This document shows, one piece after another, positions 398 through 4,433 of a stretch of 25,635 nt of DNA. Source of the DNA: a virus. The translations under genes were made by a program, and so were the position numbers. The stretch's first letter is position 1. The number at the start of each line of letters is the position of its first letter. Below the pieces are notes generated by a model. It did no database searches. It was given only the letters and a program-made list of their open reading frames with translations, and had not been told where the DNA came from. Location of the stretch: IMG/VR virus record IMGVR_UViG_3300007345_000244, positions 1 through 25,635 of that record. One strand, given 5' to 3'.

Positions 398-778
398 ATG
401 AAAAACATTCTGGGGTATTTCGACCGCGTTAAGGAAAGGAAAAGCAGCAGGGGATTCCGGGAGTGGGACGCAATGTGCCCAGCGCATGACAGCTCGAGCC
501 GAACGCGCAAGCTGGTAATCACTGAGAAGCCGGACGGCTATGTTTTTTACTGTCGCAGCGGCTGTAGTCACCGAGAAATCCTTTGGGCTGCTGGCCTAAA
601 TTGGCGCGATATTAAGACTGAATCAGGCGTATCCGCAAGGATCCCGAAGTTCGACACATATCACCAGGCACTGATCTTGATTGCCGAGGCAGAAGTGAAG
701 AAGGGCAAGGTGCTCAGCTCTGGGGATCGAGCACTTTACCGGGATGCGATCAGGCGTAGAGCCGGGGCAAACGCGTGA
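398..778 (+). CDS. Primase-type CHC2-like zinc-finger protein (no polymerase domain)
   Basis: The 126-residue protein has the zinc-binding module of DnaG/T7-type primases: C27-P-x-H30 followed by C52-x3-C56, with the typical strand pattern between (KLVITEKPDGYVFYC) and AAGL after the last cysteine. In primases this module reads the single-strand initiation site. No TOPRIM or other catalytic domain follows; the rest is a short helical tail (about 75-126). Comparable zinc-only proteins sit in front of replication genes in other prophages. The ATG follows a strong AGGAGG. It is the first gene of the early operon, and its stop overlaps the next start (GTGA). I infer that it works with the replication protein and helicase downstream, or with host DnaG. 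Confidence 0.7.
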   Translation: MKNILGYFDRVKERKSSRGFREWDAMCPAHDSSSRTRKLVITEKPDGYVFYCRSGCSHREILWAAGLNWRDIKTESGVSARIPKFDTYHQALILIAEAEVKKGKVLSSGDRALYRDAIRRRAGANA

Positions 779-1428
779 AGTGGCTCAAGTTGTACGTCGA
801 TATCGCACAGAATCCTCGCATCAAGCTCCTGGCTTTCGAGGATCGCTGGCATTACATCTCGCTCCTCTGCGCTAAAGCGGAGGGATATCTCGATGAGCGG
901 CCAGAGCTCCGCGATCGAATGGTCAGTGTTCACCTGGGCCTCACTCCGACCGAGCTCGAGAACGTCAAGGATCGACTGGTCGATGTCGGTTTAATCAGTG
1001 ACCAGTGGCAAATCTATAACTGGGACGAGAAGCAATCCAAGGATGCGACCGGCGCAGCCAGGAAGCGGAGACAACGTGCCCGGGAGAAAGCCGAAAAAGA
1101 AGCGTCCCTTACTAATAAGAATATAGAAGTAGTAGAGAAGGAAAATGTGACAGTCACGCGACCGTCACGGGACAGTCACGGGACAACAACCACTAAGCGC
1201 TCTAAAACCTTTGTTCCACCTACGATTAGCGAGGTTCGGGAGTACATCAAAGAGAAGGGTTACACCTTCGACCCGGATCGCTTTGTCAGCTACTACGGCG
1301 CGAATGGCTGGATGGTGGGCAAGAACAAGATGAAGTGCTGGAAATCTGCCTGTACCAACTGGCAGTCCCGGGAGCCGGCAAAGGCTTCATTGGGCCCGGC
1401 TACAGATGCGGGGGTAATCGCGGCATGA
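775..1428 (+). CDS. DnaD/lambda O-like replication initiation protein
   Basis: The 217-residue protein looks like a phage replisome organiser. Residues 1-85 form a helical domain with a winged-helix look (LGLTPTELENVKDRLVDVGL, then WQIYNW). A charged, basic linker covers about 92-145. Residues 148-197 carry the DnaD/DnaB_2-like tail seen in many phage replication proteins: FDPDRFVSYYGANGW followed by MKCWKSACTNW. Such proteins bind the origin and load the helicase. It starts with GTG overlapping the upstream stop, and its own stop overlaps the helicase start (ATGA), giving an O-P-like pair. Three iteron-like repeats lie inside the linker-coding DNA (1153-1184). The family call is by motif and context only. 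Confidence 0.65.
   Translation: MKWLKLYVDIAQNPRIKLLAFEDRWHYISLLCAKAEGYLDERPELRDRMVSVHLGLTPTELENVKDRLVDVGLISDQWQIYNWDEKQSKDATGAARKRRQRAREKAEKEASLTNKNIEVVEKENVTVTRPSRDSHGTTTTKRSKTFVPPTISEVREYIKEKGYTFDPDRFVSYYGANGWMVGKNKMKCWKSACTNWQSREPAKASLGPATDAGVIAA
1147..1184. repeat. Three iteron-like direct repeats inside the replication gene; putative origin
   Basis: GTCACGSGAC occurs at 1153-1162, 1164-1173 and 1175-1184, an exact 11-base step, close to one helical turn. A 5-1-5 palindrome GTGAC-A-GTCAC (1147-1157) overlaps the first copy, and an A/T-rich tract (about 1110-1148) lies just upstream. Because 11 is not a multiple of 3, the copies are read in different frames, so protein-level repetition cannot explain them. 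The layout matches lambda, where the O-binding iterons and the adjacent A/T-rich tract lie inside gene O. Confidence 0.5.
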
Positions 1429-2384
1429 CTCCCGACATAGACGATTTCAGAAACATCGATATCCAGTCTGAGCTGGCCGACATGGAAGCGCTCGATATGC
1501 GCCCGGCTGGCCAGCTCGCAGAGCGCACGATCGCTCGCCGGTCAGAGGTTGACGAGGGCATGGATCTGCCTTGGGCTAAGCTCCAGGGGCACCTGACACT
1601 CAGGAAACGTGAGCTGGTGCTATTGGGTGGTTTCACTGGTCACTTTAAGACCACTATTACCAGCCAGATCGGGGCCTACGCTATGCGCTCTGGCCACAAG
1701 GTTGGCGTGTGCAGTCTTGAGCTCAATGCAGAGGACATCATCGAGCAGTTCGCAGAGATCAGCGCGACTGTATCCCGGCCTTCAGAGGGATATCTGAAAC
1801 GCTGGTGCGATTGGGCCGACGATAAGCTAGTGATCTACGACCGACTGGATTCGATCAAGCCGCATGACGCCATCCGTATGGCGATCAAGTTTGCTCAGCT
1901 CGGGTGCCGGCTCATTATCCTGGATTGCTTGATGATGATGGGCGTGTGTGACGATCTGGAGCGGGAGCGGGAGTTTGTGCAGACCGTCAAGCGGGTCGCT
2001 GCAAAGTTCCAGGTCACGATCATTCTTGTACACCACATGAAGAAACCCCAGGGGCAAGAGGGCGAGCACGCCGCCCCCGGCAAGTACCAGTTCAACGGAT
2101 CGAGTCACATCAGTAACACCCCGGATACCATCCTCGTCGCTTGGCACGATAAGCGGCAAGCAGCGCTCCGCGCGAAGGTCGAGGATATGGAGGTCGAAGA
2201 TGAGAATTACGACTCCAGCAAGCGGGATATGCTCCTGAGTTGCGTCAAGCAGCGCAATGGCAAATACGAAGGCGCGATATCTCTCTGGCAGACCAAGGGG
2301 AGTAGGGCGTTTGTCGATAGGGCTGACCGCAAGATCAAGGCGTTCGATCCCCCGGCTAATCTCAGGGTAGTGAGCGATGTCTGA
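1425..2384 (+). CDS. DnaB-like replicative helicase
   Basis: The 319-residue protein has a RecA/DnaB-type ATPase core. Walker A is G69-FTG-HF-K75-T76, Walker B is LIILD167, followed by the switch LVHHMKKP (201-208). GSSHISNTPDTILVAW (225-240) is the DnaB H4-like segment. KQRNGKYEG (275-283) matches the KQRNG arginine-finger loop of DnaB. The DnaB N-terminal collar domain is replaced by about 60 unrelated residues. I chose the ATG at 1425, overlapping the upstream stop as ATGA; the same frame stays open back to 1335 but would overlap the previous gene by 94 bases. It presumably unwinds the phage origin after loading by the upstream protein. The residue before K75 is F where Gly is usual. Confidence 0.85.
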   Translation: MTPDIDDFRNIDIQSELADMEALDMRPAGQLAERTIARRSEVDEGMDLPWAKLQGHLTLRKRELVLLGGFTGHFKTTITSQIGAYAMRSGHKVGVCSLELNAEDIIEQFAEISATVSRPSEGYLKRWCDWADDKLVIYDRLDSIKPHDAIRMAIKFAQLGCRLIILDCLMMMGVCDDLEREREFVQTVKRVAAKFQVTIILVHHMKKPQGQEGEHAAPGKYQFNGSSHISNTPDTILVAWHDKRQAALRAKVEDMEVEDENYDSSKRDMLLSCVKQRNGKYEGAISLWQTKGSRAFVDRADRKIKAFDPPANLRVVSDV

Positions 2385-2805
2385 GGGGTTCTTTATCGAT
2401 CGCAAGGGCCAGATCGAGCACCTGATTAAACGGGTCACTGAGATCGTAGAGGGCGGCAATGTCGTGTCTCTGTCGATGCTGATCGGGCGCACCAGGTCGA
2501 GCCGTCAGCGAGCGGCCCTCGAGGTCTGGTGTCGCACAGTCGCTGATCTGTTTAACGAGTCAGGCATCACCAGGTCGATCCATTCCTCGATATTCCGGGA
2601 TGGCGAGATGGAGTGCCCGTGGAGCCAGGCGTCCGTGAAGGATGAGGTATGGCGTCCCATGCAGCGGGCGATCGCCAAGGTGGAATCCACTACCGAAGCC
2701 ACTACCAAACAGTATGTCGAGGTTTACGAGGCCCTGGTTAGGGCGTTCGGTAACAAGGGAATCACCCTGCCTAAATGGCCGGTAAGGATGGATCGTGGGG
2801 GTTAA
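2377..2805 (+). CDS. NinB/Orf-like recombination protein
   Basis: The 142-residue protein resembles the NinB-type family found in phage early operons. Features include an RSSRQRAALEVWCRTVADLFN block (37-60) like the QNR-x-LW region, WSQASVKDEVWRPM (82-95), and STTEATTKQYVEVYEALVR (104-122), ending in LPKWP. Lambda NinB (Orf) binds single-stranded DNA and SSB and helps load the recombinase. The match is by pattern, not alignment, and the family is divergent. The ATG overlaps the helicase stop by eight bases. The NinG-like neighbour downstream strengthens the call, since ninB and ninG are linked in lambdoid phages. Confidence 0.5.
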   Translation: MSEGFFIDRKGQIEHLIKRVTEIVEGGNVVSLSMLIGRTRSSRQRAALEVWCRTVADLFNESGITRSIHSSIFRDGEMECPWSQASVKDEVWRPMQRAIAKVESTTEATTKQYVEVYEALVRAFGNKGITLPKWPVRMDRGG

Positions 2806-3178
2806 ACGGGAAGCCTGCGATGTTCACTTTTCCAAGGCGGTCAGGCACCGGGATCAGCACCGCTGTCAGTATTGTTTTGGGGAGGGCACCGATTGCGCCC
2901 ATGTGTACGGGCGCGCTAAGAAATCTGTGCGTTGGTCTATGGATAATGCGCTTTGTCTGTGCCGATACCATCACCGTTATTTCACTGCGAACCCGATCGA
3001 ATTCCATGACTTCCTGCTGAAAATTTGGGGCGAGGGGCATATGGATATCCTTCGAGAGAAGGCAAACCAGACATACAAAACAACCAAAGAGCTGCGAAAG
3101 GAAATCTCAGCGCATTACAGGGAACAACTCAAACTCGCGGAGGCTGACTGGAACTACGAAATCGAGAGCTGGAATTGA
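2795..3178 (+). CDS. NinG/Rap-like HNH-type nuclease
   Basis: The 127-residue protein has a zinc/HNH-like core. C24-x2-C27 is followed by DCAH36-VYGR, then N51-ALCLC with H59-H60. The order CxxC, (C)xH, N, CxC-x2-HH is that of small HNH/treble-clef nucleases and of lambda NinG (Rap), a Holliday-junction and D-loop nuclease. The C-terminal third (80-120) is a charged helix. The start is a GTG overlapping the NinB-like stop by 11 bases, preceded by GGTAAGGA. A generic phage HNH protein is the alternative. Placement right after the NinB-like gene favours NinG. Confidence 0.55.
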   Translation: MGVKREACDVHFSKAVRHRDQHRCQYCFGEGTDCAHVYGRAKKSVRWSMDNALCLCRYHHRYFTANPIEFHDFLLKIWGEGHMDILREKANQTYKTTKELRKEISAHYREQLKLAEADWNYEIESWN

Positions 3179-4228: not shown

Positions 4229-4433
4229 CGCGCTTTCGGTGCCTGATTTTCTTGGCCATGAACTCGATGGCATCCTCATCCCAGGAACTAACCCCCTTCG
4301 GTATCTGTTGGATTTCCCCACCGCGCTCCAGGAAGCTCTGAGTGTCCTCCTGGATGCGCTTGCGATTGATTTCGATCTGTGGGGTGCGTTTTATTTTCAG
4401 CCAGTCACGGGCCGTCACGGGATCGACGTCCAT
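4221..4433 (-). CDS. Unknown 70-aa phage protein with FLxRGGxIxxIPxG motif
   Basis: The 70-residue protein is basic, with a central FLERGGEIQQIPKGVS motif. Small phage proteins with this FLxxGGxIxxIPxG pattern occur in other phages, as far as I recall without assigned function. An N-terminal segment (MDVDPVTARDWLKIKR) and a basic C-terminal tail flank it. The ATG at 4433 lies inside the upstream 28-aa membrane peptide gene; no clear ribosome site is seen, so it may depend on translational coupling. Its 5' DNA contains two GTCACGGG copies (4404-4423). Confidence 0.6.
   Translation of the reverse strand: MDVDPVTARDWLKIKRTPQIEINRKRIQEDTQSFLERGGEIQQIPKGVSSWDEDAIEFMAKKIRHRKRDD

Follow-up and report, generated by a model that had tools for sequence, protein, structure and literature searches.

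An origin of replication placed inside the gene of its own initiator is a known kind of arrangement. The ori of phage lambda lies inside gene O, beside a strand-asymmetric A-T-rich tract (PMC4488673). In the plasmid pSK41, the Rep boxes occupy the central part of rep, and the protein still works once its linker has been deleted in frame (PMC5703833). For phage 80alpha, a deletion of ORF20 abolishes replication and is not complemented in trans, from which its authors inferred an embedded origin; ORF20 was also linked to G38P of SPP1, a protein whose binding site oriL is within gene 38 (PMC5499656). A further binding region of SPP1 is oriR (PMC5615212).

Here, we analyzed a stretch of viral DNA of 25,635 bp, a partial virus record from IMG/VR (IMGVR_UViG_3300007345_000244), referred to below as the window. 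Its sequence suggests that the phage very probably starts its copying within its own initiator gene.

Initiator gene and replication module

The replication initiator gene (775-1428, plus strand) has a GTG start and codes for 217 amino acids arranged, from the N- to the C-terminus, as a winged helix, a basic helix, a linker and a C-terminal domain. The assignment was based on matches to phrog_3926 (replication initiation, 3e-9) and to phrog_10469 (DnaD-like helicase loader, 4e-6), as well as on a match to PF09681 (Phage_rep_org_N) that scored 16.5-19 bits, below the gathering cut-off of 23.3. The PF09681 matches of Gram-positive relatives reached 3.5e-54, and an iterated HMM united the window initiator with the Gram-positive replisome organisers.

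The N-terminal domain (residues 1-86; 775-1032, plus strand) is winged-helix-like according to the AlphaFold model, in which residues 1-119 had a pLDDT of 88.6. A structure model made from the single initiator sequence had a pLDDT of 43 and was unusable. The top Foldseek matches of the N-terminus were the DNA-binding domains of RepA_N plasmid initiators, at non-significant E-values of 0.2-0.6, and the initiator had no Pfam match by sequence to the RepA_N domain (PF06970). We treated this modelled resemblance of folds as a lead only. A long basic helix (residues 93-118; 1051-1128, plus strand) follows in the AlphaFold model. This helix is the proposed reader of the iterons, given the model and the alignment column of residue 97, whose codon, for lysine in the window, is located within the helix segment at 1063-1065 on the plus strand.

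The gene has neighbors that belong to a replication module. A primase N-terminus-like gene is situated upstream (398-778, plus strand; phrog_6088, 9.5e-9). A gene of a DnaB/RecA-like replicative helicase is situated downstream (1425-2384, plus strand; phrog_239, 3.7e-41; PF03796, 1.8e-9; profile-scanned as 1335-2384), and this helicase is the probable partner of the initiator. The module also contains a NinG/Rap-like or HNH nuclease gene at 2795-3178 (phrog_5034, 2.6e-14).

Repeat array within the initiator gene

The original prediction described three GTCACGSGAC copies at a step of 11 bases within the initiator gene, a palindrome on the first copy and an A/T-rich flank, and we found each of these features. 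Exact sequence matches on the plus strand placed iteron 1, GTCACGCGAC, at 1153-1162, and iterons 2 and 3, both GTCACGGGAC, at 1164-1173 and 1175-1184; no further GTCACGSGAC at zero mismatches was present elsewhere in the 25,635-bp window. A 14-mer, GACMGTCACGSGAC, recurs at steps of 11 and 11. The iterons occupy the middle of the gene, about codons 125-137 of 217, between the DNA-binding and the C-terminal domains; their distance to the start codon of the initiator is about 375 bp. The palindrome, GTGACAGTCAC at 1147-1157, is made of an inverted half-site and half of the first iteron.

The adjoining A-rich, strand-asymmetric tract (1110-1146, plus strand) was delineated by composition, with 20 A, 9 T, 9 G and 1 C in 1110-1148, and the GC content was low, 0.31-0.33, across 1094-1153. 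By analogy with lambda, this tract is a candidate unwinding element.

The three-copy lag-11 score of the initiator gene was 19 of 20. None of 20,000 synonymous shuffles, which left the protein unchanged and followed the codon usage of the phage itself, reached this score (the maximum was 18), and none of 300 dinucleotide-Markov windows had any three-copy tandem. Thus, a chance origin of the array was excluded.

At 4404-4423 in the window, two copies of GTCACGGG, 10 bp apart, are located near the start of a minus-strand ORF. As a second iteron cluster the pair was rejected: it was kept in the close relatives L003 and L004 and altered to GTCATTGCTGGTCACGGC in L006 and L008, and we therefore treated it as probably due to chance. 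GC skew was uninformative as a test and says nothing on the origin, since the record is partial and most genes of the window point the same way.

Iterons across the relatives

Relatives of the initiator were gathered by N-terminal protein similarity, with the repeats ignored. Among 38 representatives, a lag-11 repeat of a 10-mer was observed in 18 linkers, compared to one N-terminal segment and no C-terminal segments. The half-sites GTMACG/CGTKAC numbered 129 per 7,980 nt of linker, where they occupied all three reading frames, compared to 15 per 20,907 nt elsewhere in the same genes. Nearly all relatives had iterons in the same linker, usually 11 or 22 bp apart. The 11-base step, anticipated to be conserved in homologues with diverged linkers, was indeed seen in 39 of the 75 same-strand spacings from 61 representatives, and 16 of the 75 were 21-23. 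With spacings of 11 and 21-23, the sites stay on one face of the DNA helix.

The same motif fills the linkers of Gram-positive Phage_rep_org_N initiators. When viral contigs were scanned for two copies of GTCACGNGAC at any spacing from 10 to 23, distinct cases were obtained with spacings of 11 (at least 46), 10 (at least 21), 12 (at least 10) and 22 (at least 9). Among the matches listed, the pairs were mostly situated in linkers of phage initiator-like ORFs, and many of the genes were Gram-positive replisome organisers. As far as can be read from the sequences, the layout with the origin in the initiator gene is very probably shared by hundreds of relatives among phages whose bacterial hosts differ widely.

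We also observed, in both families, initiators in which an in-frame insertion of an HNH nuclease-like domain separates the basic helix from the iterons (L212, L242 and L274 in the Gram-negative set; L422, L437, L443 and L493 in the Gram-positive set). Such relatives were considered as iteron-less controls and rejected, since the iterons persist 3' of the insert. The insertion is reminiscent of origin-directed nucleases such as Odn of ICP1 (PMC8263062), except that in the initiators described here the nuclease domain is within the initiator itself.

Another observation concerned (GATACA)n tracts just 3' of the iterons, in the linkers of L204, L207, L213, L214, L219, L224, L230 and others. The tract usually encodes DTDTDT, and L207, L213 and L217 use another frame, with IQIQIQ as the product. 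Given the differing frames, this tract too may be selected as DNA, and it is perhaps an unwinding element. The clade of the window has the A-rich tract 5' of the iterons in place of (GATACA)n 3' of them.

Residue 97 and the half-site type

Two types of half-sites were distinguished, GTCACG (C-type) and GTAACG or GAAACG (A-type), with each genome having mainly one of them. Among all alignment columns, residue 97 was the best at separating the site types in both families, and residue 93 was the second best in the Gram-positive set. For the scored genes of the Gram-negative set, the sites were C-type (GTCAC) in 35 of 35 genes with K97, 9 of 9 with T97 and 1 of 1 with S97, and A-type in 61 of 61 genes with V97; genes with Q97 were split, five being C-type and five A-type. 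Two V97 genes with the HNH insert (L212 and L242) had mixed half-sites 3' of the insert, outside the scored linker.

For the Gram-positive set, it was stated before the scan that K97 would go with GTCAC and V97 with GTAAC. We found 40 of 40 and 19 of 19, respectively, in counts that take in closely related phages; in the same counts N97, not predicted in advance, had GTCAC in 29 of 29 genes, and the single Q97 gene was A-type. This set had been widened by a second scan, as the first one gave mostly near-identical Staphylococcus prophages.

Across these alignments, the third base of the half-site can be predicted from residue 97, K, T, S or N going with GTCAC and V with GTAAC. The repeats covary with the helix of the protein encoded around them, which is what binding by this protein would lead one to expect. 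As a chemical basis, the side chains of K, N, T or S could form a bond with the G that pairs with C, while that of V could contact the methyl group of T. In the Gram-positive members, the helix has an i, i+4, i+8 pattern (N/T93, K/N/V97 and R101), which would presumably parallel, in prokaryotes, the basic region of bZIP proteins.

A natural swap was found between phi11 and a phiPV83-type prophage. Residues 1-102 of the two initiators had 100% protein identity and 98-99% DNA identity, and the sequences diverged at NWEKHQ, where the helix NIEGLEKIRAQNRLRKQKQR gives way to SLDSKAKHKEKNKLRQQRYR; the sites, GTCACGTGAC in the first, are GTAACGTTAC in the second. Five more pairs, in which the winged-helix protein was at least 90% identical, differed both in the helix and in the site type. 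Such a change of helix and sites over an identical winged helix suggests that the third base is read by the basic helix rather than by the winged-helix part.

On the other hand, the association of helix and site could be due to common descent of a few lineages, with residue 97 having no contact to the third base. The sequences are related, and each family provided four informative well-supported pairs, whose 4-0 outcome in the independent-pair test was not significant alone (p = 0.125). Still, the pairs combined gave 8-0, with an exact two-sided sign test of about 0.008 when the families are treated as independent. The site type changed 13 and 12 times on the trees of the two families, winged-helix parts that are 94-100% identical bear different helices along with different iterons, and it was the same column that ranked at the top in both families. 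Common descent alone is, in our judgment, an unlikely explanation. As for the broader picture, we lean slightly towards one origin system in Gram-negative and Gram-positive phages, in which the basic helix, rather than the winged helix before it, would read TGAC-/TAAC-type sites, residue 97 would set the third base, and the helix and the iterons would make up one cassette that moves between initiators otherwise identical.

Proposed origin and alternative roles of the repeats

It is highly likely that the repeats are origin iterons bound by the phage's own initiator and that 1110-1186 is the replication origin or its core. The view of the window repeats as probable initiator sites rests on the covariation of helix and site. 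In the mechanism that we propose, the initiator (775-1428) would bind the three iterons inside its own linker-coding DNA, which consist of GTCACG/CGTGAC half-sites and are in phase with the turn of the DNA helix. The basic helix (93-118) would do most of the specific reading, with residue 97 touching the third base pair, and several bound initiators would sit on one face of the DNA. The bound array would strain the adjoining A-rich tract (1110-1146), which would then open, and the C-terminal domain would recruit the helicase encoded just downstream and hand it over to the open strand. What the sequences show is that the repeats are conserved as DNA, where they lie in the gene, how they are phased and that they covary with the helix; from this we infer the binding, the melting, the helicase loading and the start of replication.

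The helix covariation is more direct evidence for binding than for a role as origin. The repeats might bind the initiator for another purpose, for example to repress the initiator's own operon or to control incompatibility, and replication might start elsewhere; phage operators are often short palindromes. Conversely, the sites are mid-gene and adjoin an A-rich tract, and their copy number and phasing are those usually seen in origins. This layout has experimental support as an origin in lambda (PMC4488673) and in pSK41 (PMC5703833), and has been inferred to be one in 80alpha (PMC5499656). We consider it quite improbable that replication starts elsewhere, though the sites could serve autoregulation alongside, or in place of, origin function.

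Origins are known for few phages. The motif, together with where it lies in the initiator gene, would locate the origins of many uncultured phages from sequence alone. If confirmed, the residue-97 rule would predict which initiator uses which origin and, by extension, between which phages or satellites interference is possible. In the open-licence literature, the short phased sites and the helix code appear undescribed: papers there on phage iterons and DnaD-like initiators contained no account of this family of sites, and among the papers listed for the motif letters all were unrelated, while older work may exist.

Conservation of the iteron DNA in another reading frame

An 11-base step shifts the reading frame each time, which was the argument of the original prediction for selection on DNA. 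While suggestive from one sequence, this argument was borne out by the homologues L177-L179. Alignment and translations showed that a 51-bp block of the window (1136-1186) is identical in L177 and is read there one frame over, with the translation being ENVTVTRPSRDSHGT in the window and GKCDSHATVTGQSRDK in L177. In the iteron block proper (1141-1185), 45 of 45 bases were the same in L177, L178 and L179, with a different peptide. The DNA identity between the window and L177-L179 was 89-90% in the N-terminal part and 74-79% in the linker directly 5' of the iterons; 3' of the iterons it was 63% for L177 and 28% for L179. The most conserved DNA of the gene was therefore the sole stretch translated differently.

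A 51-bp block kept in another frame indicates that selection acts on the DNA, and these homologues make an unusually clean example of such selection within a coding sequence. Amino acids kept with the repeats lost would have spoken against the predicted origin; we observed the opposite, DNA kept with the peptide changed. The linker peptides of the relatives are similar in composition, but the idea that a low-complexity peptide (VT/SRD/SHGT) is what is selected, with the DNA repeat merely following, is refuted by the identical DNA encoding unlike peptides in two phages and has next to no credence given the half-sites in all three frames and the shuffles that never matched the repeat score.

Directly 3' of the iterons, the C-terminal domain is swapped between the window (1187-1428) and L179 (contig of L008) as well as L181-L200, the exchanged types being NGWMVGKNKMK and YPRKVGKK or RYI..ERW. 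In L179 the whole domain is replaced, and the helicase-like ORF that follows begins differently too. An exchange at this position fits a possible split of the protein into origin-reading and helicase-loading parts.

Comparison with known systems

Lambda has its origin in the linker of the initiator gene, between a DNA-binding N-terminus and a partner-binding C-terminus (PMC4488673). The original prediction that the window reproduces the logic of the lambda ori in gene O is supported: the repeats are in the initiator's own gene, they are selected as DNA, and they adjoin an A-T-rich asymmetric tract. The likeness does not extend to the length of the iterons or to the side of the tract. A lambda-type ori is characterized by four iterons of 18-19 bp, and in lambda itself they number four, measure 19 bp and have the A-T-rich tract on their right, compared to three sites of about 10 bp at a step of 11 in the window, with the tract on the 5' side.

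The RepA_N replicons of the pSK41 type resemble the window in the winged-helix N-terminus, the mid-gene sites and the separate C-terminal domain, and the pSK41 linker, encoded by the origin, is dispensable as protein (PMC5703833). The central location of origin sites between the DNA-binding and C-terminal domains, typical of RepA_N, was observed in the window as well. The pSK41 DNA-binding domain was at the top of the fold search for the window, as a non-significant match. On the other hand, the Rep boxes differ in sequence from the iterons of the window, pSK41 is a plasmid rather than a phage, and the window initiator is without RepA_N by sequence.

SPP1 G38P is, by description, a replisome organiser that binds an origin, oriL, in its own gene (PMC5499656), as proposed here for the window initiator. 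The phi11 ORF15 and 80alpha ORF20 proteins are Phage_rep_org_N replisome organisers of Staphylococcus phages, and ORF20 of 80alpha belongs to the wider family of the window initiator, a link read from the phi11 homologue. ORF15 of phi11 shares with the window the N-terminal fold family, the basic-helix signature and the half-sites in the linker (CGTAACGTTACCGTAACGTTACGTAACG). The two initiators have about 20-25% identity, and the sites are A-type in phi11 and C-type in the window.
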